Source: Mesodorylaimus sp. YZB2_4 (Eukaryota > Nematoda > Enoplea > Dorylaimida > Dorylaimidae). Taken from it: a stretch of DNA of 64,000 nt. The stretch lies in assembly GCA_030248295.1 (NCBI GenBank), contig JASANH010000944.1:1-64000 (forward strand), read 5' to 3'. Positions 8,373 to 38,639 of this stretch are shown here, one piece after another; the stretch's first letter is position 1, and each line of letters begins with the position of its first letter. The notes beneath the pieces were generated by a model that was given only the letters and a program-made list of their open reading frames with translations, did no database searches and was not told the origin of the DNA. A program made the position numbers and the translations under genes.

Positions 8373-9201
8373 GAAGTCGTCCCGATTATTTTTTAGTTAA
8401 CGGGCCTTGTAAGGAATATTTTGTAAGAATCCCACCATGCATGAATTTTGTTCGAAATGTCATTTTGGTATGAACAGTACAGAACAGAATGACGTTGGAG
8501 TTTTTCATCTTGCTGCGCCATGACTAATATATATGACAGCACCATGACAACAGTACAGAACTGCTTTGAAGTAGCAGCTCTGGAGTCAAGTCAGGTGCGC
8601 TTGTAGTGATTCTGTTAGCCGTGGAACAATTACAAGTGATAGTAATAGTAATAGTAATAGTCCACATTATGTCTCGCTTAATTTTAGAAGTGAAAAATCT
8701 ATCCGTCTTAGTATAACTTAGATTACGGTATTTTTGCAAATGAAATTACCAACGATGCGACTCAGCGGCTTTTTAGCCATCGTGTAGATAAATCAATGTA
8801 CACGGCTAATTTAAACACTGTGAACAATACGGTGTAGTTCGTTTCGATTTCGTCGCTGTTTAAGGTCATAGGCAGAAAATAGGTGCACTATCTTTGTTGC
8901 GAAATGAGGGGTCAGTAAAAATAATTGCTGCCGCTATCGTTGTGGTCCTAACAGCTGGCTCAATTTTGTTATCTCGTTTCCCGCAGTGCCGAAACTCAAG
9001 TTTACTCAAGTGAAATACGTGCGCTCTACAGTATGACACGAAAAACGAAAAACGGAAGCGAAAACCAAGAGTGGTTCGAAAAGTGTGCAATTTGGTGAAT
9101 TGGGTTTATTGACATGAATAAAAGTATATTTTTCGTAAGGGTTTCGTTAAAACTTGTTTTGTTTTGGTGCTAAGTCGCTTTGTCGGCTATTTATCAACAA
9201 A
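8373..9201. other. Intergenic, upstream region of the SAM carrier
   Basis: AT-rich sequence with a short (AGTAAT)n-like microsatellite at about 8639-8660. No gene is supported. The promoter of the 9202 gene presumably lies in the right half; no specific element is recognisable. Confidence 0.45.
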
Positions 9202-10245
9202 ATGGACGAGAGCAGGTTGAATGTTCCTCTCGGTCATACGGAAGCTTTGTTGGCGGGCGCAATGGCTGGCTTAGCGGTCGATCTAACGCTTTATCCATTA
9301 GATACAATCAAAACTCGTCTTCAAAGTCAACAAGGATTCGTAGCTGCTGGAGGTTTTCGACAAATTTACTCCGGCGTTCCAGCCATCGCCATCGGTTCGG
9401 CCCCGAGCGCGGCATTATTTTTCGTTTCTTACGAAAACACGAAACGAGTTCTCGATAAAGTAGTGCCTCATTCTACCTTTGCTCATATGTCGGCTGCTTG
9501 CGTTGGTGAATTAGTCGCGTGCCTTATTCGAGTTCCAACTGAGGTATTTAAGCAACGTGCTCAAGCTTCGCCTAAATTGACCACTTTTCGAATCATTCAT
9601 CACGCGGCTGTCAATGATGGCATCGCTGGATTTTATCGAGGTTATTGGAGTACGGTAGCTCGTGAACTTCCGTTTTCTTTTATCGAATTCCCATTGTGGG
9701 AATATTTGAAGCAAGTATGGTCTCGAGAACAAGGAAAACCAGTGACAGCTTTGCAAACGGCGGCATGCGGTTCGATCGCGGGCGCCGTGGCGGCTGGATT
9801 GACAACGCCGTTGGACTTGGCAAAAACGCGAATCATGTTATCGAGGAAAGTAACTGGAGAACGAATGACTGTCAAATCTGTTCTAACAGATATTTATCGT
9901 GTTCACGGTGCGCGAGGCTTGTTCGCTGGATTTTGGCCGAGGGTCACTTGGATGGCTTTAGGTGGTTTCGTATTTTTTGGCGCTTACGACAAAGCCGTGC
10001 GATTCGTGAATGCATTCGAACCAGTGGACACACCCGAAAGGTTACAAATATTAGCATATTCGGAGTGGTATCGGAATATGATTGTTAAAATGTACGATTT
10101 TATTCTTGAAGATCCAAAAGAAACGGAAAGGAAAGGAAAATTGACGTTTGAAGATTCGTTGAGGGAAGCGGCCGAAACTGAACAAAAGCGGCGAGCATTT
10201 ATTGAAGCTTCAAAGAGAAGATTGGAAGAAAGAGGACAAATTTAA
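9202..10245 (+). CDS. SLC25A26: Mitochondrial S-adenosylmethionine carrier (SLC25A26 family)
   Basis: The protein imports S-adenosylmethionine into the mitochondrial matrix in exchange for S-adenosylhomocysteine (known for the family), in the inner membrane. The 347-residue protein shows the three carrier repeats, each with its PX[DE]XX[KR] signature: PLDTIKTRLQ, PTEVFKQRAQ and PLDLAKTRIM. The ending GGFVFFGAYD matches the close of the sixth helix in SAM carriers. The ATG at 9202 (ACAAAATGGACG) is preferred; an in-frame ATG at 9154 would add 16 residues. After the sixth helix there is an unusual hydrophilic extension of about 70 residues (from PERLQILAYSEWYRN) rich in E, K and R; typical family members of about 270-280 residues stop before it. 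No intron is apparent. The gene leads a same-strand series with MRM3 and ADAT3. Confidence 0.92.
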   Translation: MDESRLNVPLGHTEALLAGAMAGLAVDLTLYPLDTIKTRLQSQQGFVAAGGFRQIYSGVPAIAIGSAPSAALFFVSYENTKRVLDKVVPHSTFAHMSAACVGELVACLIRVPTEVFKQRAQASPKLTTFRIIHHAAVNDGIAGFYRGYWSTVARELPFSFIEFPLWEYLKQVWSREQGKPVTALQTAACGSIAGAVAAGLTTPLDLAKTRIMLSRKVTGERMTVKSVLTDIYRVHGARGLFAGFWPRVTWMALGGFVFFGAYDKAVRFVNAFEPVDTPERLQILAYSEWYRNMIVKMYDFILEDPKETERKGKLTFEDSLREAAETEQKRRAFIEASKRRLEERGQI

Positions 10246-13400: not shown

Positions 13401-15859
13401 CATCAATCAGCCGATGAAATTAGGAATGATATGTTTCGCTGATATTTTCCAGAAAAATTTCTAAAAGTGTCAGTAGAAATTTCTGCTATGCTTATCAAAA
13501 AACTTTGCATAATTGCAACTTTTTTCAAACTTTTTTTGAACTTTGCATAATTGCAACTTTTTCCGATTGTTAGTCTTTTTGGCGTTTGGAGCGGCTGCAA
13601 TCATCCGAGGTCGACTGTATAGAAGAATATGCATAAGCTCGCTAGGTACACTCTGGTCCATCGTATCATATCTCGCTAGAGGAAGCAGAAGATATTGGCT
13701 CATTATCGTTCGATGAGATGATAAGTTCAGAGGCTGGCAGCAGTAGCGATGAATAGGCAATTGCTGGGGGGGGGGAATCAGCTAAAATCGATAACAATAG
13801 CGGCACTGATTTTGTTAGCCTAGGCCCACCATGCTGGACATGTATAGAAACTGCAAACGTACTCATCAATTAAGCTTACTGTATACATATTGATTGAAAA
13901 TCGGCCTAAGAACAAGATAAGAAACCTGGATGACTAAAAAGTGTGCTTTAGTGAGGAAAATAAGCTCATAGACAAAACACAGAAAAATTCAAGAAATCCT
14001 GATCCCAACCTTTTCCTGCTGATCGTGAGTTTGATGCATTCAGGGACTCGCCTTTGTTTTCTTGAGCATAATGATGGAACGGTTGGGGATGAGGGTATGG
14101 CTGTTAGTGAAAAAATATTCTGTATGAGTCAGTTTGTGAAGTATAGCAAAGTCATTTGTCAGCGTGAAAACCTCCTCAAAACTTTCCAAGCTCCCTCCTC
14201 AAACTCATCAAAACCTCGTCAAATTCTGGTCAGGAACAATGTTTTCCATGTGATACCTGGAATATGAGATGAAAATGCACAATTTTGAAGGATTAGGAAC
14301 GAATGTGCATTAAAATTGATAATTTGTTTTCTTTTATTAGCCCCAAGTTGCTCGAGCATCTTCCAGTCGTCGAAGGCGAAGGTAAACGAATTTTGATCGA
14401 CAGGGCTCGCATGGCCACGTGGTCACTGATGGAAGCGCCGCCAGGAATCATGGGTATGGAGTTGTGATGTTGAAAATTGGAAGTTTATTAAGTTATATTT
14501 AGAAAATATGTGACGGTTTCAGCGATCGTTGAACGACCAAGTGACGAAGATTTGGAATATCAAGAATTCAGAAATGATCGAATTCCATTGACGGTCGTCG
14601 TGGACGGTGCACGGGAACCTACAAATATGGGTATCATTATACGAACGTTGGGTGCTGCTGGATGTGAAAGAATCTTGATCACGAAGGGTATGTATCAGAA
14701 AATTACAGAATTTGATGTGTGATTATAAACGTTATCTTTCAGGGAGCTGCGATCCGTGGGAAGAGAAAGTACTGCGATCGGGAATGGGTGCACATTTTCG
14801 AGTGCCTATATTCACCAAGATCGATTGGTCGAAAATGATAAATTATGTACCAGAGAAATTCAGGGTGCGTGAGTTTATGCTGGTTTTTTGGGGGTCTTTG
14901 TTTCGCCGGGTCCTAGGAAAGGGCCGTATGGGTCGGAGCCTAGACCTTTTTAAGGCCGTGACTTCAGTCTGTGTGAGGGCTAGCGATAGGTTAGGGTCTC
15001 GATCTCAGTGGCGTCAGGATAAAGGCTACTTGTTTTCACTTATAACGGGCAGCATCTTTTAGCTAGAGTTCACTCGGTTTCTGTGATTTGATCTTACGAT
15101 TAGGGGAAGGGGCAGCCATGTATTAGCATAAGAGGTTTTTTGCAGATTTTCAGCCATCCATGTGGATGGGGGTTGTCTCCCTTTCCCCTTCCCTATGTCC
15201 ATACATGGTGTAAACAGCAGTGGCACTAAAAGTAAATATTGTAGGTCTTCTTGGCCGACAGCAATTCGTTCGAGGTTGTCAAAGAAGCGGCATCCTACTT
15301 CGACGATGTGAAAAATGAAGCGTATCAAATCGCATCTGGGGAAGAGAACGAAGATGATGCGGATCGATTTGGAGCGGGAGTGGAAATGGTTCGACACAGT
15401 GATGGGTCTGTGTTGCAAATAGAACCTGAATTACGTCGATCCTCGTCGAAATCGGCTTCGATACATCAGCATTTACTACCTATCTTCAAGTACTTCGAAC
15501 CGTCATATTTCGGACCAGATGGCGAGCCTAGTCATTGTTTGCTGATCATCGGTGGCGAGACATCGAGTTTGAGCGCGGCGGCTTATCAGTTCGCTCATTC
15601 GCATTCGGGTTGCAAAGTGCATATTCCCATGTGCAATGGGGTTAATAGTCTGAGTGTGGGATCGGCCTTGGGCGTGGTGGCCTTCGAGATTCAACGGCAG
15701 TATCTATTGAGGGAGCCGATCATAATGCAGGCTATTGAAGGTGGTGAGAGGAGAGAGGTGATTGGCGAGGAGAAAGTGAGGGGACTTGTGACTGATGGAG
15801 AACAAAGTGGAGATTCTAAAGAGCTGATTGGCGAGGATCAGGAGGCTGTTAAGAGATAG
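10463..15859 (+). CDS. MRM3: Mitochondrial rRNA 2'-O-methyltransferase MRM3 (SpoU/TrmH family)
   Basis: Six exons join in frame to 454 codons plus stop: 10463-10536, 11368-11643, 14341-14453, 14523-14687, 14743-14864 and 15245-15859. All introns are GT-AG and all junctions keep phase. The first 25 residues (MWTRIVSRVCRSQG...) are Arg-rich and lack acidic residues, as a mitochondrial presequence would. The SpoU SAM-binding knot is complete: motif 1 NMGIIIRTLG (about residue 189), motif 2 LLIIGGE (about 349), and motif 3 IPM...NSLSVGSALGVVAFE (about 376-397). Family members methylate a guanosine ribose in the A-loop of mitochondrial large rRNA using SAM. Length agrees with human MRM3 (about 420). 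Intron 2 (2.7 kb) has taken in transposons. The last 55 residues are a low-complexity acidic tail. It lies between the SAM carrier and ADAT3 on the same strand. Confidence 0.9.
13036..13215. mobile_element. 180-bp MITE with TTAGGC-type interior, copy 1
   Basis: The terminal inverted repeats are GGCACTTTTGCTGTTTAGTC at the left and, read inward from the right, AGCGCTTTTGCCGTTAGATC. The flanking 8-mers GAAAGCAA (13028-13035) and GAAAGCAG (13216-13223) match at seven of eight positions, as a target-site duplication. The interior carries CTTAGGCTTAG-like motifs. The second copy is at 17817-18016. Confidence 0.8.
13500..13617. mobile_element. Pogo/Tigger-like element end fragment
   Basis: The right end reads ATCCGAGGTCGACTG followed by TA. 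Internal ATAATTGCAACTTTTT repeats match the ends of the larger element at 30950-32165. The left end is not clear. It lies in MRM3 intron 2. Confidence 0.6.
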
Positions 15860-15960
15860 AATTGGTGTGTGGAATGTTGCAAGTAAATTCCTTTCACATA
15901 TGGCGGGGTTTGGTGTTGAATGGTAGTTGCCATCTTTATCTTGGATTGGTGTTTGTGATT

Positions 15961-15982
15961 GGTGTTTTAGATGTGTGTTTAG
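15961..15982 (+). promoter_or_regulatory. Acceptor-like sequence just before ADAT3 ATG
   Basis: Two acceptor-like ends occur, GGTGTTTTAG (ending 15970) and GTGTGTTTAG (ending 15982); the second is one base before the ADAT3 ATG at 15984. With only 124 bases between the MRM3 stop and the ADAT3 start there is little room for a separate promoter, so trans-splicing of a downstream operon gene is likely (inference). Confidence 0.5.
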
Positions 15983-15983
15983 G

Positions 15984-17180
15984 ATGGCGGAGGATGGACG
16001 ATCAGTTGCTGGAGGCGATCACTCGGATGATGGAGGATCGACCCCAGCCAAGATCATGCGTTTGGATAGAGCAGTGGTCAAGAATGATGCCCAACCTGTT
16101 CAACAAATGACGGAGACTCGACTGCTTGATCTGTTATCCACAGCCAAGCCGATCCAATCCGATGAATTGGAACGATCAGATCTGCCGTTATCGGATTTCC
16201 TATCGATTGAAATCGATGATCCGCGATCGATTGGTCAATCTTTACTGTGGTTGGATCAAAATGGGTACGGATGGGCCATGTGGAAGCATTTGAAAAGAGC
16301 GAGGCGATGGGCGATGAATGAAGAGATGGAGAAGGAGAGTGCACAAGTTTTGATCACTACGATGGAATATTATCAGAAATTATCAAGTGATCAGCGATCG
16401 ATTTTGGACGATTGGATAACGAAAACTGGTATTCTCAAGACGGTACAAGCAACGTCGAAACCGCCTTTGACTCGTGTCCAGTACGAATTCTCGCAAAGAT
16501 ATTGGCCGAGTGTGTTCCACGAAGACGGACAATCGAAACTGTTATCGAATTGGCCGCGATCATTGAAAATAGAAGAGCAACGATCGATCGTGGCCAATAT
16601 GAGAAAGGCTATCGATATAGCGAAAGTGGGGATTGGGAAACTAAGAAAGTGGAATGATGGAAATGTGGATTCGGATTGCGGGTGTTCCAAATCGGTTATT
16701 TCTGGCTGCGTAATTATCGATCCAGTATCGAATTCTGAGATCGCCATGGCGAGTAGTGCGTTATTACATTCGATGAAGAATCCGCTTTTGCACGGGGTCA
16801 TATGTGCTGTGGATTTAGTGGCTAGGAGTCAGGGCGGCGGGGCGTATGATTTCGGAGAGAAAGGACGGGATTGTGGATTTCGGTGGTGGCTCTACGAGGA
16901 TGGCAGGGAGAACAGCGAATATCTGTGCACTGGATACGACTGCTATCTGACTGAGGAGCCGTGCACGATGTGTGCCATGGCTCTGCTGCATTCGAGGATT
17001 CGTCGAGTATATTTTGGGCAAAGGGCAACTGATGGGGCGTTGGCGAGTAAACTGAAATTGCATTGCTTGAATGGGATCAATCATCGATTCGAAGTGTATG
17101 GCGGGGTGTTGGAAATGGAGTGCGCTTCATTGGGGGAAGAAGAAGGAACTCTGTCAGGTGATTTATCAATCGGGATTTGA
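15984..17180 (+). CDS. ADAT3: tRNA-specific adenosine deaminase subunit ADAT3
   Basis: The product is the non-catalytic partner of ADAT2 in the heterodimer that deaminates A34 to inosine in tRNA anticodons (family knowledge). The 398-residue frame has a divergent N-terminal half and a C-terminal cytidine/deoxycytidylate deaminase domain. The first zinc ligand motif is HGV (His at residue 270), with Val where catalytic members have Glu; this is the ADAT3 hallmark. The second is EEPCTMCAMALLHSRI (Cys 327 and 330). ADAT3-type flanking motifs YLCTGYD and RRVYFG are present. The start at 15984 fits an acceptor one base upstream; an ATG at 15927 in the same frame would add 19 implausible residues. 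No introns are seen. The start is 124 bp after the MRM3 stop, suggesting an operon. Confidence 0.92.
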   Translation: MAEDGRSVAGGDHSDDGGSTPAKIMRLDRAVVKNDAQPVQQMTETRLLDLLSTAKPIQSDELERSDLPLSDFLSIEIDDPRSIGQSLLWLDQNGYGWAMWKHLKRARRWAMNEEMEKESAQVLITTMEYYQKLSSDQRSILDDWITKTGILKTVQATSKPPLTRVQYEFSQRYWPSVFHEDGQSKLLSNWPRSLKIEEQRSIVANMRKAIDIAKVGIGKLRKWNDGNVDSDCGCSKSVISGCVIIDPVSNSEIAMASSALLHSMKNPLLHGVICAVDLVARSQGGGAYDFGEKGRDCGFRWWLYEDGRENSEYLCTGYDCYLTEEPCTMCAMALLHSRIRRVYFGQRATDGALASKLKLHCLNGINHRFEVYGGVLEMECASLGEEEGTLSGDLSIGI

Positions 17181-17640
17181 TCAATCGATAAGAATGGGTG
17201 ATGATGCTGGTAAGTGTTATTTTCTACTTTCTACAAAAAGTTGATTGGGCTTTGGTGGACTATGAACGTTCCTGGTTTACCTCATCGTCCCTGACGAGTG
17301 AGATAGTGAAAATCGTTTCTATACTCTAAGAACTGGTCCGCCTCTCTAATGGAGGGGGGATGGAGTGGCTGGTTTTGATGGCAAAGATTAATGACTGGCT
17401 TTCTAAGTAGTCAGAATTGCCCTTGACCGACTTTTCCACCGACCAATCATAACATCATTCCCCCACCATCGCGTAGGTGCGCTGCTGCTCACGAAGTGCT
17501 CCATACGAAAATGATAGGTGGGATTAATTGTGAAGAGTCTGTAGACTATTGAATCTGATTTTGACAAGCCGTAGGTTATCCTTGGCCAGTCAGGGCCAAG
17601 GAGGATTTTTGGCGAAGGTATATACGTATACCCTGCCCCT
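17181..17640 (+). other. Region between ADAT3 and snoRNA host gene
   Basis: About 460 bases with no coding sequence supported. It should hold the ADAT3 3' end and perhaps the host-gene promoter; a CCAAT-type motif (GACCAATCAT) lies at about 17441. No clear AATAAA is seen. Confidence 0.45.
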
Positions 17641-17816
17641 CACTTATAAGAATGCGCGTTGTGATTCAAGGTTAGAGCTGTTTGACCGTGATCAGCTGGT
17701 AGGAAGTGCTCCCTATTTTCAGGATGCCGACTGCGCTTCGTCGTTCCGTGCCAATGTAAGCAGAAGAAAGGAGACGGTAAGTAACGAGAAGTGGTGTGAA
17801 CGAGGGCGAAACGTAG

Positions 17817-18016
17817 GGCATTTTTGCTGTTTGGTCCCCAACATGGGTTAGCCAAGGCTGGTATTAGACTTAGGCTTAGGCTTAGGCTGGCATATGACTT
17901 GGGCTTAGACTCGTACCAGGCTTAGGCTTATGCTTAGTCTGGTATATAGGAATTAAGCTTAGGCTGATATTAGCCTCCAGCCAGCCTTTGCCTGGGGACC
18001 AAACGGCGAAAGCGCC
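17817..18016. mobile_element. 200-bp MITE with (TTAGGC)3 interior, copy 2
   Basis: The ends are GGCATTTTTGCTGTTTGGTC and, inward from the right, GGCGCTTTCGCCGTTTGGTC. It is flanked by the perfect 8-bp duplication AAACGTAG (17809-17816 and 18017-18024). The interior contains CTTAGGCTTAGGCTTAGGC, three nematode-telomere-type hexamers, and further TTAGGCTTA units. It inserted in the first host-gene intron, 20 bp upstream of box C of the first snoRNA. Confidence 0.85.
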
Positions 18017-18031
18017 AAACGTAGTTACTGT

Positions 18032-18101
18032 AGCTCGTGATGATCTATGGAGCTTTAGGACACCTCTGATAACAATTGCAGATAATTAGCCACTGATAAT
18101 T
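18032..18101 (+). ncRNA. C/D snoRNA A1 (28S guide family)
   Basis: Box C GTGATGA is at 18037-18043, box D' CTGA at 18066-18069 preceded by guide TTTAGGACACCT, and box D CTGA at 18093-18096. The guide is complementary to the conserved 28S segment AGGUGUCCUAA. By the D+5 rule it would methylate the G of AGGU-G. Box D is 55 nt from the acceptor at 18151. Confidence 0.8.
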
Positions 18102-18335
18102 GTTTTGATCGCTTAGTGTGGGTTGTCCTTGCGTTTGCTAATTGCTTTCAGTTTAGGTGCGAATATTATGGATTCAAACATCTGAAATGGCGATGCTTTT
18201 TGTTTTTGGCATTTGCAAGACTTCAAAAATTTTTTATGGATTTTAAGTGGGCAGTGGAAATTCTGAACGAAGATGGTGACGGCTGTTTCGTATGAGGTAA
18301 ATGAATGGAGAAATTGATATTTGGGAATGTGGGAA

Positions 18336-18413
18336 GGAGGATGATGAGAGATTATTGTCAGCCTTAGGACACCTCTGATATTCAGTGATGTTTCAAATAG
18401 CGTTCTGACTAGG
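18336..18413 (+). ncRNA. C/D snoRNA A2 (28S guide family)
   Basis: Box C ATGATGA at 18341-18347, guide CCTTAGGACACCT then D' CTGA at 18375-18378, a C'-like GTGATGT shortly after, and box D CTGA at 18405-18408. The acceptor lies 67 nt downstream (18475). The register is the same as A1 (target G). Confidence 0.85.
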
Positions 18414-18610
18414 ATTGACTTTAGTCGGTGTGTGTTTTCTGTGTGTGCCCTCTATTGGTACGACTTACTTTGCAGTGGAAGCTGTTACCTGGCGATCATT
18501 ATGAGAGGCGATATTGGTATCCTCGAATGCCAGTATCGTTTGTCGCGGTCATATGATCATAACCTGGGACATGTAAGTAATTCAAGTGCGCTTTGTGTAT
18601 GTTTGAAGTG

Positions 18611-18681
18611 AGCGTATGATGACAGACATACTTAGGACACCTTCTGATGTTTACTGATCGATGCTAAGTATTCTGACGGGC
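18611..18681 (+). ncRNA. C/D snoRNA A3 (28S guide family, shifted register)
   Basis: Box C ATGATGA at 18616-18622, guide CTTAGGACACCTT then D' CTGA at 18644-18647, and box D CTGA at 18673-18676. The extra T before D' moves the predicted methylated nucleotide by one relative to A1/A2. The acceptor is 69 nt downstream (18745). Confidence 0.82.
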
Positions 18682-18845
18682 ATTGATTGAGCTGGGGTTA
18701 GTTTTGCACAAACTTCGAATCACGCCTGCTTGAATTTATTTTTAGGGCCAATGCCGGTCAGATTGACAGCAAATCGCAGTCGTGAAGATTTGAATGGTGG
18801 TTTGGTTTAATGTAAGTTGGTTTTTTTGTTCTGCTGATTTTTGCT

Positions 18846-18911
18846 TGCATATGATGACTAGTTTTAACCGTCTGACTAAACCGTCTGAAGTGAAATAACT
18901 TTCTGATAATA
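18846..18911 (+). ncRNA. C/D snoRNA B1 (target unknown)
   Basis: Box C ATGATGA at 18851-18857, followed by CTAGTTTTAACCGT-CTGA, a second internal CTGA, and box D CTGA at 18903-18906. The acceptor is 65 nt downstream (18971). A close copy, B2, is at 20065-20129. I could not match the guide TTTTAACCGT to remembered rRNA. Confidence 0.75.
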
Positions 18912-19051
18912 ATCACTCATTGGAAATGTCAGAAAAGTTTGACGTGAGGCTGCATGACCTTTTGTTTGTAGAGATGCATGGGAAGAGTCAATGTGAGAAA
19001 GAATGTCTGGAATGGTATGTTATCGGTGTATTACTGCGTAGGATTGTTGTG

Positions 19052-19118
19052 GTTTTATGATGATCATATATTCCTCGTACTGACTATTCAGTTTGAATGC
19101 ATTTTTTCACTGAAACTC
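19052..19118 (+). ncRNA. C/D snoRNA C1 (target unknown)
   Basis: Box C ATGATGA at 19057-19063, guide ATTCCTCGTA then D' CTGA at 19080-19083, C'-like TGAATG, and box D CTGA at 19110-19113. GTTT/AAAC flanks form a terminal stem. The acceptor is 61 nt downstream (19174). It shares guide and C' with C2 and C3. Confidence 0.8.
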
Positions 19119-19265
19119 GATGAACTGACTTAGTTGAAGCTTTTGAAGCCAGGATCTAGTTGTTTTTTTTGTAGGATCGGCTGGGTCAAGACTGTTGGTT
19201 GGCGCTGTAACCTGCATTTTATGGTAAACAAACAGTCTTTTTGTGATGCATGTAGACTGACTTGG

Positions 19266-19338
19266 AGTATGTGATGAACATACAGCTTTAGGACACCACT
19301 GATAGTGTATCGCTTGAAGATAGGAGCTGCTGATTGAT
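19266..19338 (+). ncRNA. C/D snoRNA A4 (28S guide family)
   Basis: Box C GTGATGA at 19271-19277, guide TTTAGGACACCA then D' CTGA at 19299-19302 (one change next to D' against A1), and box D CTGA at 19330-19333. The acceptor is 61 nt downstream (19394). Confidence 0.8.
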
Positions 19339-19494
19339 GTGGTTGGTAAATGGAATGAGGAAGCAAAAAACGTTTTTCATACCTTGTTTTTTAGATGTGA
19401 TTCGGCGAGACCTCTTGCGATCGGAATGGCGCTGATAGACTGCTTTGTGGTAAGTGTTGGCGGACTGATGTCATAGAAAGAGAAGCGGTATTGA

Positions 19495-19573
19495 TCAGCA
19501 TGATGAAAGATATGTGTCAGCCTTAGGACACCTCTGATAATTAGGTGACGAGCTAATCAGTATTCTGAAAGGA
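19495..19573 (+). ncRNA. C/D snoRNA A5 (28S guide family)
   Basis: Box C ATGATGA at 19500-19506, guide CCTTAGGACACCT then D' CTGA at 19534-19537, and box D CTGA at 19565-19568. The likely acceptor ends at 19642 (74 nt); an alternative at 19618 would give 50 nt. It is very close to A2 through the first half (GTCAGCCTTAGGACACCT). Confidence 0.82.
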
Positions 19574-20064
19574 AATGATAGATGTCTCTGAGGTACTTGG
19601 GTCTGTCACAATTTCCAGTAAGTACAGTACGCCTACTTGCAGGCGCCAGAAGAGTACAGAAGTGACATCGAACGTGATCGTTAGGCTTTGTCGAGGCATG
19701 GTGGCAACGGGAAATCTGAAACATTTGGGTAAGTGAGCATTAATCTCATGAGTTCCTTAGTATGAAAAATGTGGTGGCACCAAGAAGACCTCACAGTTAG
19801 TTCATAGTCTATTGTCATTTGGCAATTTACTTTACACTTAGCTGCGAATGGGCTTTTGAGAGTGTACAGACAACAAAAACCTTGTCGGACCTGATTCTTT
19901 TGGTTGATTATGAAGAATGTTCTGATCGTTGTTCTGTGTGAAAAGAATCTTTTCTTTGGTTTCAGCAACTCACTGCATTATCTTGTTTCAGGCTTACCAC
20001 TGTGACAATCTGGGTAACCTAAGGTAAATATGTGGTTTTCTCTATGGTCTGACAGTATGCTGCA

Positions 20065-20129
20065 CCTTAGTGATGACTAGTTTTAACCGTCTGACTAAAA
20101 CGTCTGAAGTGAACAACTTTCTGAAAAGA
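20065..20129 (+). ncRNA. C/D snoRNA B2 (target unknown)
   Basis: Box C GTGATGA at 20070-20076, then CTAGTTTTAACCGTCTGACT as in B1, and box D CTGA at 20121-20124. The acceptor is 69 nt downstream (20193). It is nearly identical to B1 from box C to the second internal CTGA. Confidence 0.78.
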
Positions 20130-20277
20130 GATTATCTGCTGAGAAGTGCAAAATATTTTTGTGGTGTTGGTAAGGTCTGGTTTTGGTTTTTAGGAGCGCT
20201 TCTCAGCCAATGTCGTTTGGTTAGAGTCATGGAGAATATGGGTGAGTTATGGACTTTGTGAAATTGAGGAATTTATA

Positions 20278-20348
20278 GTTGTGTGATGACAGACATACTT
20301 AGGACACCTTCTGAGGTCACTTGATCGAGATCAAGTATTCTGATAATA
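20278..20348 (+). ncRNA. C/D snoRNA A6 (28S guide family, shifted register)
   Basis: Box C GTGATGA at 20283-20289, CAGACATACTTAGGACACCT then T and D' CTGA at 20311-20314, and box D CTGA at 20340-20343. It is nearly identical to A3 in the first half. The acceptor is 66 nt downstream (20409). Confidence 0.84.
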
Positions 20349-20477
20349 TGCAACCAGTCTAACAAAGTTTTTGGTCGACGATTGAAGTTACAATGTTTCT
20401 GTTTTTTAGGGCCTTTGATTGGTAGGAAAACTGGAAAATAAGTAAGGATGTGTTTATTAAATTGTTTATTTTGAGGA

Positions 20478-20547
20478 GGAAAATGATGATCTATAGAGCC
20501 TAAGGACACCTCTGAGAAAAAGTGAAGTGATAAAGCCTCTGAATCTT
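20478..20547 (+). ncRNA. C/D snoRNA A7 (28S guide family)
   Basis: Box C ATGATGA at 20483-20489, guide CCTAAGGACACCT (one change against the family) then D' CTGA at 20512-20515, and box D CTGA at 20539-20542. The acceptor is 68 nt downstream (20610). Confidence 0.8.
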
Positions 20548-20707
20548 ACAGAAGTTGTAAGAATATAGGAACAGGTGTTGTGGCAACGTGTAAATATAGT
20601 TTTTTTTCAGAAGCTGATTGCGACTGCAACTGTGTGCTTGGTGCCTGATGGAGGCTCGCTGGATGGAGGTATGCGGAGGTGGTAATGTTACTATAGTTTT
20701 GGGGACA

Positions 20708-20778
20708 TTTGAATGATGATTGTTATACTTAGGACACCTTCTGATATGTTTTGATGGATTACAAGTATTCTGACGCCT
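20708..20778 (+). ncRNA. C/D snoRNA A8 (28S guide family, shifted register)
   Basis: Box C ATGATGA at 20713-20719, guide ACTTAGGACACCTT then D' CTGA at 20741-20744, and box D CTGA at 20770-20773, with AAGTATT before box D as in A3 and A6. The acceptor is 70 nt downstream (20843). Confidence 0.84.
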
Positions 20779-20919
20779 GGTCTCAGGGCTTGTGATGAGT
20801 AGGGTTTTGAAACCTTTCTATGCTATTTTTTGCTGCTTTTTAGATTTGAAGCTCGTGAAATCGATGAATTTGTGACGAAGTACAGGGTAAGCTGAGATTT
20901 TGGTCGGAGTTTGTGTGTT

Positions 20920-20993
20920 GTACTAATACTGATTGCTGTATTCCTCGTACTGACTGCGTGCAGTAGTTTGAATGCAATAGATTTCTGAAGTCT
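20920..20993 (+). ncRNA. C/D snoRNA C2 (degenerate box C)
   Basis: Guide GTATTCCTCGTA then D' CTGA at 20950-20953, C'-like TTTGAATGCA, and box D CTGA at 20985-20988. The acceptor is 54 nt downstream (21042). Box C is weak (around ACTGATT, 20928-20934), so this copy may be decaying. Confidence 0.6.
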
Positions 20994-21293
20994 TGTTGTT
21001 CATGGCCATGTTTACAAAAGCAAGGAAAGCTGGCTTTTTCAGGATAATAGCGACGCAATGCGATCAGTCAGCTCAATCTGCATTTTAGTTCTGCGAAGTA
21101 AGCGTGAGATTACTTATTTCAGTGTTGATTAATTTTTCAACTTTGTTGCTGCACTGTAGGTGTTGGCAATTTTGGCGTTCCAAATGATGACATGTCCCAA
21201 CGTTGCTGCTGTGGTGAACTTGCAGTAAAAATGGATTTTGATGAAGTCTGAGAAAGATATCGAAAAGGTTAGTGAATATCTTCTCTAAAAAGT

Positions 21294-21390
21294 CCTAAAG
21301 ATGATAAAATTTTTTGTGTGCTAAACGCAATAACGTTATTCCTCCTCGTACTGACTCTAACAGCATGAATGCATAGATTATCTGAAACTT
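21294..21390 (+). ncRNA. C/D snoRNA C3 (long, box C variant)
   Basis: Box C variant ATGATAA at 21301-21307, TTATTCCTCCTCGTA then D' CTGA at 21351-21354, C'-like ATGAATGC, and box D CTGA at 21382-21385. The acceptor is 65 nt downstream (21450). The box C to D' interval is longer than in C1, which suggests an insertion. Confidence 0.62.
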
Positions 21391-21529
21391 GCCTTTTTTG
21401 TGCTTAAGTTATGCTTGTAAGCTTTGGAGTGATTGGCTTACTTTTTTCAGGACGATTGGTAGAGTTGTTGATCGCACTCTTTCCAGTCATGTAAGTTTTT
21501 TGTATAGTTTCGCTGGGCTTTTTGATTAT

Positions 21530-21599
21530 TACAAATGATGAGTTAGTTGCTCGAACTGTTCGAGATTCGTCTGTGACAAGAGAAACCTTGCTGACAATG
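21530..21599 (+). ncRNA. C/D snoRNA D1 (possible 18S 3'-end guide)
   Basis: Box C ATGATGA at 21535-21541 and box D CTGA at 21591-21594 preceded by AGAAACCTTG. An acceptor TTTTGTTTAG ends at 21661, 67 nt downstream. GAAACCTTG is complementary to CAAGGUUUC near the 3' end of 18S rRNA. No clear D' box is seen. Confidence 0.6.
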
Positions 21600-21800
21600 A
21601 AAAATGCATGGCGTTGCATAATTTGCTTGTGGCGGATAGAAAAATCTAGTATTTTGTTTAGGTGTGGATCGATTCGTAAAAGATTGGATATAACGAAAAA
21701 CGGATCATGGCATCGTTTGTTCATTTACTGCTCTTCCGGAGGTAAGAGGAAATTGCTAGACGGGGTTTCTGATAACTTACCATGCTTACATTACGCCTTC

Positions 21801-23869
21801 CTAGTCGTGTATGCCTGGGGCTTACGCGACTAGGGAGGCGTCTACTGGAGGAACCGTTTTTTAAGGGACTTATCTTCAGTACTCTCATGCGTACACGCGT
21901 GCCTGTGAGCTTTATAAAACACTCTGCAGTCCTTCCGTACCTAGATTTTGACTGATCTTACTGTCGTTGGCGAGTTATATCAACGTCGCAGCCCAAGCAT
22001 TTCACACGTCTTGGCTGCTACTGCTATTCTCTCCAGCATCTAAGTCTTTGCAGCGTAGATTCAGGCAGTGCAGCCTAGGTAAGATGTAAGAGGGAAGGAG
22101 AGGATGCGGCTGGCTGAATGACGCTGGCTTAGCAAGCGAGTCTTATCTGCTATGGGAGATCGATAACCCTATCCCACTCGCACTCATCTTCGCCACTGAC
22201 GAGGCCTAGAGAAGTATAGAGATAAGCCTTTGTCTCCACGCCCAACCAATCAGAATTTTAATGGTACGTTTTGACAGGTAAGCGCAATAAAATTGCAGGG
22301 CCTGCTGGAACTGTCTTAAAATGAAGGCAGCAGTCAAGTCGCAAGAGTTCAATAGCCAGTGTCTTTTGGGGTATTTATGCTTGGGTTCTGATTCTAGAAA
22401 TCAAGAATCGAGCAAGAAACTTAGACCATATACATCGGCCGTGAGCAGAAGCTAGGAGAATGACATCTGATTAGCAAGCCCTATATTTGTTCTGTCTTGC
22501 GCGGGTTATTTTACTGTATGCTCGTGTGATGTCGTACTAATCGTAAGAGGTACTCTGACTGTGGTAGCAATGGCCGTCTGGGACCATTTGTCGCAGAATA
22601 CGAAATGCATCATTTAGGATCGCCGACTTGGTTTTCTAGAAACTTGAACAAGCTTGTGCATAGCGGAAACTAAGCTCTTGAGATCGAATCAAATCCGCAC
22701 GAATAAGTGTTCCGCAATTGAATGTCGGAGACCGACATTCTTATTGGTTGGCAAAAGAGTGCCAGATTCAACCCTTCTCCGGTATGGACGCGTTTTCCCA
22801 ATTATTAATGTGAGGTTTCGCTTTATTTGCATCAAGAGGCTTTCAATGGATATCTTGTGGAGATTTGCCAGTACAAAGACGCTTAATTTTCATTGCATTT
22901 TGTGCAGTTTGCTAGCATAGACTGTCCAAAGGGGCGATAGCTATCTCTTGATGTCTGTATTATTATGAGTGTAATTCAAACGAACTATTCTGCGAAACGT
23001 TAGGGCGTGATCCTTCAGTGCACCGTACTGGTATAGCGAGCAAAAGCAGTAACTTCGTTTTCCTAACACAGCAAACATGCACGTAATGTATACATAAGGT
23101 GTGCCTATTAAAGTGCTGTCCCGAGTGGGGCGACCAATGATGAATTGGCATTCGGTTGACTATCCATTGGAGACACTGTCGCCTTGTAGCAGCGGAAGTT
23201 ACTTGCGTGGTGTGGAATTGGCGACAATAGACGAAACTATTGTATCTGGCCATAAGCACAGAATCAAACACGGGTGAACCGCTCGCACGGGCTGCCAACA
23301 GATGTTATAACTGACCTCCAGCTCTCTTCCCGTTCGTACTCTCACGATCAGGGCACATCATATCACAAAGGGAGCAGGTTTCAGGCGACGGAACTACTCC
23401 AGAATCTCTTCAGAATAATGCACTCGAGAATAACCCTTCTCGACAGACACAGCATTCTCCAGTAGTCACAAGTAGGGAACTGAATGCTGGCGTTTTGTCA
23501 GCAGTGTCGAAGACAGCATAACTACAGTGCTGTCAGCGAGTCATGACAAATTCAAACGCTGACCAAATCGTAACAGTGCGATTAAAATATTCGTTTCCAT
23601 CAAACCCGCAACAGCAAAAGCTCAACATCAAAAATTAAAATTACTGGTTACACCACGCTTGGCTTCATTACTTTGCCCAGGTGATTGCCAACCATCCAGC
23701 TCTGATTCGGACTTGAAGCACTTGCAAAGCCGAGGGACAGGCAGCACACTAAAAAAGCTGGCCTCATCTGCTTGCTGACTGCAATCGCATTTTCTATGTG
23801 GCGTTTGGTGCCAGACAGATTTGTCATATGGCCAGAATCAAGTAAGTTCTTTCGGCCACAGCTTACCTT
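21801..23869. other. Intergenic, nothing recognised
   Basis: Two kilobases with no supported gene. The left edge may still contain the 3' end of the snoRNA host transcript. Short frames have no domains. Confidence 0.4.
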
Positions 23870-37886: not shown

Positions 37887-38639
37887 TTTACGTATATATT
37901 TCTACCTCGGGCAGTTGGAACTCCAGTTTTGTATGGAAAGTCGAGATCCACTCCAGGGTGCCCTGGTGTGAAGGTGCTCTTAGTGGAGACGCACAGATGG
38001 AGCGCGCTATGAGATTGTGATGAGGTTATTCCTAGTGCTGAGTAGCGTTGTTATAGTTGACTGAAAAACTGGATCTATCAGTTAACTGAATCTTTTTAAT
38101 TCAGTAAACTATAACTAAAACTGAAACTGAATCTCCTCGCCAAAACTGAATTTAACTGTTACTGAATCTTTTAAGAACCAGTTAAATTCAGTTTTCGAGT
38201 CACTACGCTTTCGAGAATTTGTAATCTGTTTGCGGATGTTCGTGCAGATATCAAAGAGAAACGGAGCGCAGCTAGACGAGTGAATCATCTTAGTCGCGAG
38301 TAGGAGGTGTACTTTGTTATCCTTAAAACGCTGGTTATATTATAAAAATAGATCCATTCGAACTTTGGTCCAAATGTAGAGAAAAGTTGCAAAATCTTCA
38401 CCAATATTGTAGGACTTTATCATTCCCTGCAGGCTAGCGCCGAGTGAAAGAGTTATGAGCTAGGCGAGGTCCAAGTTGAAAAGCAGTCGTCATAGTTAAA
38501 GTAAAATAAAAATACCTTTAGTATATGAAAAAGGGTTTCTTTAATGTCAATCATTTTATTACAAGCATTTTAAAGTCACATCTTCTTGATCTTAGAAAGC
38601 TTTGCCAACCATTAAGTTGAACTTGACATGCTTATTCGA
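37887..38639. other. Intergenic with CTGAAACTGAATCT-type repeats
   Basis: No gene. Stretch 38040-38190 consists of repeated and inverted ACTGAATCT / AGTTAACTGAA motifs; a related stretch is at 39255-39390. These look like parts of a small palindromic element. Confidence 0.5.

Follow-up and report, generated by a model that had tools for sequence, protein, structure and literature searches.

The window analysed here comprises the first 64 kb of contig JASANH010000944.1 (C219) from the nematode Mesodorylaimus sp. YZB2_4, whose assembly (GCA_030248295.1) spans 145 Mb in 1067 contigs. Positions 17641-21900 of its plus strand very probably (we estimate about 0.9) represent a noncoding host gene of the UHG type, about 4 kb in length, for box C/D small nucleolar RNAs (snoRNAs). 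This identification is well supported by the clustering of the motifs, the complementarity of the largest snoRNA family (family A) to ribosomal RNA (rRNA), the placement of the elements in predicted introns, a likeness between copies that is confined to the snoRNAs, and the lack of a reading frame in the exons. From the sequence we infer that the gene would be transcribed and spliced, that small nucleolar ribonucleoproteins would be assembled, and that rRNA would be methylated. A host gene of this kind is ordinary in principle; the lineage, the compactness, the eight-fold duplication of a U58-like snoRNA and a one-base switch at box D' are noteworthy.

Box C/D elements in the region

A strict pattern (RTGATGA-CTGA-CTGA with a C-to-D span of 48-70 nt, limits chosen after the elements had been seen) was searched on both strands of the 64 kb. 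It matched 11 times, always on the plus strand and always within 18038-20773, and never on the minus strand. Since the mean over 1000 dinucleotide shuffles of the region was 0.035 matches and the maximum 2, the signal is well above background. Widening the span to 44-80 nt raised the count to 12, with the minus strand still empty. The additional match, at 38018-38089 on the plus strand, is a C-D'-D-like element far from the host gene with five of five terminal pairs and a span of 72 nt; it may be a lone snoRNA or may match by chance.

The region was also screened for TGATGA, exact or with one mismatch, followed by two or more CTGA. The element at 21536-21594 has boxes C and D and lacks a canonical D'. 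Two segments at about 20925 and 21318 retain a guide word, a C'-like part and box D and have no recognisable C box. Measured against the box C/D definition (C box RUGAUGA, D box CUGA, internal D'/C'), the 11 strict matches thus conform, one more conforms except for its D', and two segments fail at the C box. A previous sequence-only reading of this DNA had counted at least 14 intronic snoRNAs, all with this architecture. The cluster is genuine and exceeds chance by far, but the number is slightly too high: we arrive at 12 sound candidates (the 11 strict matches and the 21536 element) and two apparently decayed or divergent copies, and the architecture strictly holds for 11 of the 14 segments. 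The lengths given there (mostly 65-78 nt) agree with ours, since the cores measure 54-68 nt from C to D and about 64-78 nt with flanks.

Four families can be distinguished: A with eight copies, B with two, C with one element and its two decayed or divergent copies, and D with one. A sequence profile of the aligned family A finds exactly its eight members in the window (E values of 1.3e-13 or better); as it matches its own members by construction, the result is that the window holds no others. The candidates are listed below, with predicted target sites in the small-subunit (SSU) and large-subunit (LSU) rRNA and, in brackets, the analyses on which the entry is based.

18038..18096, plus: A1, U58-like snoRNA, C box to D box, LSU G site (strict scan, profile, guide test)
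18342..18408, plus: A2, U58-like snoRNA, LSU G site (strict scan, profile, guide test)
18617..18676, plus: A3, U58-like snoRNA, LSU U site (strict scan, profile, guide test, relaxed Rfam)
18852..18906, plus: snoRNA B4, suggested targets SSU U621 (D') and U612 (D) (strict scan, guide test)
19058..19113, plus: snoRNA C5, suggested target SSU A1578 (strict scan, guide test)
19272..19333, plus: A6, U58-like snoRNA, LSU G site (strict scan, profile, guide test)
19501..19568, plus: A7, U58-like snoRNA, LSU G site (strict scan, profile, guide test)
20071..20124, plus: snoRNA B9, suggested targets SSU U621 and U612 (strict scan, guide test)
20284..20343, plus: A10, U58-like snoRNA, LSU U site (strict scan, profile, guide test, relaxed Rfam)
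20484..20542, plus: A11, U58-like snoRNA, LSU G site, pairing down to 9 bp (strict scan, profile, guide test)
20714..20773, plus: A12, U58-like snoRNA, LSU U site (strict scan, profile, guide test)
20925..20988, plus: C13, putative copy of C5, decayed or divergent, C box not recognisable and start therefore an estimate, intact 9-bp guide (guide test)
21318..21385, plus: C14, putative copy of C5, decayed, C box not recognisable and start therefore an estimate, guide cut to 7 bp (guide test)
21536..21594, plus: snoRNA D15, boxes C and D, no canonical D', 9-bp D guide to SSU G1774

Under relaxed conditions (E up to 5), Rfam gives eight matches in the region, seven of them to snoRNA families. SNORD58 (RF00151) is assigned to 20278-20348 (25.1 bits, E = 0.04) and to 18611-18681 (18.7 bits, E = 2.5). 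In the better of the two, the consensus is matched both by the D' guide and by the UAUUCUGA end. Because both scores stay below the gathering cut-off of 42 bits, family A is termed U58-like here and is not claimed as a formal member of SNORD58.

Architecture of the predicted host gene

The region from 17001 to 22500 was read directly by eye, and a splice model was made by hand. It contains 18 exons and 17 GT-AG introns, 14 of which carry one element each while three carry none. The predicted features are:

17641..21900, plus: predicted noncoding host gene (hand splice model, TATATA at about 17619, AATAAA at 22286); the 5' end at about 17641-17723 and the 3' end beyond 21805 are not fixed
17723..17776, plus: exon 1 (an upstream exon or intron is possible)
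18152..18296, plus: exon 2
18476..18572, plus: exon 3
18746..18811, plus: exon 4
18972..19014, plus: exon 5
19175..19223, plus: exon 6
19395..19449, plus: exon 7
19643..19728, plus: exon 8
19729..19991, plus: intron 8, 263 nt, no recognisable snoRNA, weak likeness to D15
19992..20023, plus: exon 9
20194..20241, plus: exon 10
20410..20441, plus: exon 11
20611..20668, plus: exon 12
20844..20886, plus: exon 13
21043..21097, plus: exon 14
21160..21267, plus: exon 15
21451..21490, plus: exon 16
21662..21741, plus: exon 17
21805..21900, plus: exon 18 (21900 is a mere cut-off of the model)

The AATAAA at 22286 is the sole AATAAA or ATTAAA within 21800-22500. As the sequence-only reading had stated, each element lies in a short predicted GT-AG intron: 13 of the 14 element-bearing introns measure 156-193 nt, and intron 1 measures 375 nt. 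The spacing is close to constant. In the 13 regular introns, 38-51 nt separate the donor from the start of the C box (mean 44.6, standard deviation 3.6), and 54-74 nt separate the end of the D box from the acceptor (mean 65.8, standard deviation 4.8). Without C13 and C14, whose starts are estimated, 11 of the 12 sound elements have a donor distance of 40-51 nt, and all 12 have an acceptor distance of 55-74 nt. The single exception, A1 in intron 1, lies 261 nt from its donor. In the spliced model of 1187 nt the three frames contain 22, 16 and 16 stops, which bears out the claim that the exons share no open frame. Both features of a UHG-type gene, a separate intron for each snoRNA and exons without a coding frame, are therefore present in the model.

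The unusual length of intron 1 is explained by an insertion:

17817..18016, no strand assigned: 200-nt inverted-repeat transposon copy, resembling a miniature inverted-repeat transposable element and flanked by the 8-bp direct repeat AAACGTAG

It has matches at 40 other places in the genome, these being all 40 that were scored of 358 candidates. An 8-bp flanking repeat presumably marks the element as hAT-like. When the element and one copy of the flank (208 nt) are subtracted, the donor distance of A1 becomes 53 nt. As this residual is close to the values of the other introns, the insert is a later passenger. The element contains TTAGGC-like units. A telomerase RNA in intron 1 was considered on account of these units and rejected, since they represent the repeat strand, no template is present and the stretch is a transposon copy.

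Intron 8 compares with D15 at z = 3.3, one of 60 comparisons, and may perhaps contain a decayed D15 copy. A hidden H/ACA snoRNA in this intron was rejected because its fold is no better than that of shuffles (z = -0.43). A strong hairpin (21793-21843) is located right at the last predicted acceptor. Its Rfam match to mir-1268 (E = 0.79; 22.6 bits, where the cut-off is 83) is weak and probably due to chance.

Predicted targets in the rRNA of the same genome

Guides were compared with the complete SSU rRNA of 1806 nt (C791) and with a 1150-nt stretch of the 3' part of the LSU rRNA (C443). The remaining LSU was sought in the assembly with two universal words and not found. Every CTGA in range was taken as a potential D or D' box, giving 32 guides; p values were derived from 300 shuffled guides each, and target sites were assigned by the box-D+5 rule.

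All eight D' guides of family A pair with AGGUGUCCUAAGGC in the LSU over 9-14 bp, at the position that the rule predicts. The pairing comprises 14 bp in A1 (with one G-U), A2 and A7, 13 bp in A6, 12 bp in A3, A10 and A12 and 9 bp in A11; p is at most 0.010 in seven of the eight and 0.097 in A11. In five copies there is one base between the guide word AGGACACC and D', which places the site at G367 of the LSU stretch. Three copies have two bases at this position and hence point to U366, so that a single extra base ahead of D' moves the predicted target from the G to the adjacent U. The context of this U/G pair is AGGUGUCC. A SNORD58 guide is expected to be complementary to the LSU GGUGUCC site with its U/G pair, and this complementarity is found in all eight copies.

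In humans, Um4197 and Gm4198 of 28S rRNA are 2'-O-methylated (PMC4463414), and SNORD58a is reported to guide Gm4198 (PMC9696202). Judged by eye, the U/G sites described here correspond to this human pair. Family A thus resembles SNORD58 in its D' guide to the GGUGUCC site and, as regards the best match, in the UAUUCUGA end as well; it differs in scoring below the family cut-off and in having eight copies in one gene.

The targets of families B, C and D are plausible, although weak singly, and are offered as suggestive only. The D' guides of B4 and B9 pair over 11 bp with SSU U621 (p = 0.033 and 0.030), and their D guides over 9 bp with U612 (one G-U in B4; p = 0.27 and 0.15), where the single guide difference between the two copies preserves the pairing. 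SSU A1578 pairs over 9 bp with C5, 9 bp with C13 and 7 bp with C14 (p = 0.11, 0.22 and 0.88), and SSU G1774 over 9 bp with the D guide of D15 (p = 0.12). Each of the 12 sound copies is predicted to pair with rRNA over 9 bp or more, not all of these pairings being significant singly. By eye, A1578 seems to be equivalent to human 18S Am1678, which has been assigned to SNORD82 (PMC12931454). Family C and SNORD82 would then share a target; Rfam gives no SNORD82 match here at gathering or relaxed scores, and one of the three family C copies is intact.

Four LSU pieces, L038 and L039 on C443 and L040 and L041 on C311, all have a sudden start close to one and the same conserved point, with unrelated DNA ahead of it. 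They could be truncated or interrupted ribosomal DNA units or, alternatively, reflect assembly breaks.

Likeness between copies and occurrence in the genome

Conservation was compared among the copies inside the host gene. In the 28 pairs of family A, the snoRNA bodies exceed shuffles by a mean z of 8.7 (minimum 5.3), a score to which the shared boxes contribute, as they do to all body scores. The intron parts before and after the body have mean z values of -0.1 and 0.1 (single pairs up to 2.9 and 2.7), and the exons before and after of 0.8 and 0.5 (up to 3.9 and 3.0). The same picture emerges from the one pair of family B (body 18.8; flanks 1.0 and 1.9; exons -0.1 and -0.4) and the three pairs of family C (body 6.8; flanks -0.3 and 0.5; exons 0.8 and 1.3). 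Since the bodies are alike and their surroundings are on average at background, it is the guide-bearing part that seems to be held by selection.

The pattern AGGACACC-N1-2-CTGA occurs at 43 places in the genome, eight of them in the host gene; the reversed control occurs at 20. Each of the eight guide words in the gene is preceded by an exact TGATGA C box and followed, within 60 nt, by a CTGA. At the 35 places elsewhere, no exact TGATGA is found within 45 nt upstream. A DNA search with A3 returned three places, all in the host gene, and missed five other A copies, so that it is weak evidence of absence. The guide word of family B has two matches in the genome, both in the host gene, against one for its reversed control. 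Within a possibly incomplete assembly, U58-like guides and, with less certainty, B guides appear to come from the host gene alone.

Proposed mechanism and alternative explanations

The locus would be a dedicated RNA polymerase II gene that encodes no protein and has its introns as the product. Its transcript would be spliced, and during splicing of each intron the C/D core proteins, among them fibrillarin and Nop58, would assemble on a snoRNA placed some 65 nt ahead of the acceptor. Debranching of the lariat and trimming by exonucleases would then leave a stable box C/D snoRNA of 60-75 nt, with the joined exons as by-products. The snoRNAs would guide 2'-O-methylation of rRNA, the eight U58-like copies being directed to one LSU site (five to the G, three to the preceding U); with less certainty, two copies would serve SSU U621 and U612, one A1578 and one G1774. 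We know of no human counterpart for U612 and U621 being served together by one snoRNA. In mammals, C/D assembly that depends on splicing works best when the snoRNA lies some 50 nt ahead of the branch point, and AQR/IBP160 assists it (PMC8162545); the intron spacing found here fits this mode by analogy. We advance the full combination only tentatively, judging its chances to be well below even: that this gene is the sole source of guides for the U/G pair, that two subsets differing by one base direct the neighbouring methylations, that C/D assembly is coupled to splicing, and that one snoRNA serves U612 and U621 without a known human counterpart.

Several observations weigh against the host gene or its proposed targets. 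Splice sites in the hand-made model were chosen by eye. Terminal stems are weak: a scan requiring four of five terminal pairs retains only five elements in the region, besides the one at 38018 outside it (in 300 random sequences with the dinucleotide frequencies of the region, the mean was 0.10 and the maximum 2). At gathering scores Rfam reports nothing in the region, and its relaxed matches place other elements in other families, for example A11 in SNORD79 and A12 in TtnuCD6. A few pairs of exons or flanks reach z values of 2.7-3.9. The target search covered the SSU and the 1150-nt LSU stretch only. On the D side, seven of the eight family A guides are no better than shuffles, the eighth being A10 with p = 0.033; the D' values of family B fail correction for 32 tests; and the matches of C5, C13, C14, D15 and the B D side are singly non-significant (p = 0.11-0.88). 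Moreover, an extra CTGA at 19125, downstream of C5 and outside any sensible snoRNA, yields a meaningless p of 0.023.

Among the other explanations, the least improbable, though still unlikely, is that the snoRNA introns belong to the transcript of an upstream ADAT3-like deaminase gene, as a spliced 3' extension or as the downstream cistron of an operon. The deaminase open reading frame (ORF) lies on the same strand, ends at 17180, about 460 nt ahead of the region, and is followed by no AATAAA or ATTAAA within 17180-17800. A gap of this size is, however, long for an operon, the TATATA at about 17619 suits a separate start, and the exons are noncoding under both views. We consider it very unlikely that the snoRNAs are transcribed independently, from their own or tRNA-like promoters, or cut by an endonuclease from an unspliced polycistron. 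C. elegans does have independently transcribed snoRNA loci (PMC2527325), but every element here is flanked by donor- and acceptor-like sequences at near-constant distances, and the stretch before the C box, as given above for the family A pairs, shows no average likeness between copies.

The remaining two possibilities are more improbable still. The locus could be a cluster of snoRNA pseudogenes that arose by local duplication and lost its function, as the apparent decay of C13, C14 and perhaps intron 8 might suggest. Against this, twelve copies retain boxes C and D together with their predicted rRNA pairing while the surroundings have diverged to background, which requires selection. A protein-coding host whose ORF escaped the model is conceivable in view of the exon borders picked by eye. 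It was rejected, since stops occur in all frames and shifted borders cannot open exons that contain internal stops. A noncoding gene with one snoRNA per intron is preferred.

Comparison with known host genes

In the vertebrate genes UHG (SNHG1) and GAS5, noncoding exons are combined with C/D snoRNAs in separate introns, and hosts of the UHG type are RNA polymerase II transcripts that often carry a 5' terminal oligopyrimidine tract and are sensitive to nonsense-mediated decay, with exons that are poorly conserved between species although their snoRNAs are conserved. Vertebrate hosts mostly contain different snoRNAs, whereas the set found here consists of four families formed by local duplication. 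The sequence-only reading had regarded the locus as an equivalent of UHG and GAS5. A noncoding host of this type is indeed indicated, but the nearest analogue that we found is Drosophila Uhg1. The Drosophila Uhg genes have no recognisable ORF and up to 16 introns with a single snoRNA each, two introns of the set being without one (PMC4430873). Uhg1 harbours 16 snoRNAs, five positions being targeted exclusively by them, and a null allele deleting about 4.2 kb from the first to the last exon slows growth (PMC4430873). Uhg1 and the present gene are about equal in size and plan. Uhg1 belongs to another phylum, and in the nematode gene eight U58-like copies dominate.

In C. elegans, loci of short noncoding RNAs are frequently intronic; unlike the gene described here, they reside in introns of protein-coding genes or have upstream motifs of their own (PMC2527325). 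A figure on the biotypes of snoRNA hosts in a review includes worm (PMC11028025). Among the top-ranked titles and abstract beginnings in the literature, no noncoding multi-snoRNA host in a nematode was found, which is not to claim that none is in print. If our interpretation is true, the UHG design of flies and vertebrates extends to a nematode. The eight-copy family with its one-base D' shift would offer a clear-cut natural example of the box-D+5 rule, and the near-constant intron spacing after divergence of the flanks would make splicing-coupled assembly testable in this lineage.

Neighbouring features

An exact match to the canonical 22-nt spliced leader SL1 is absent from the assembly. Upstream of the host gene, three features were noted on the plus strand. 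The single-exon ORF at 15927-17180 contains the Pfam deaminase domains PF00383 and PF14437 and is presumably the tRNA deaminase subunit ADAT3. The ORF at 15245-15859 has a SpoU-like motif by eye and no Pfam match. A mitochondrial carrier (PF00153) is encoded at 9151-10245, which we take to resemble the S-adenosylmethionine carrier.

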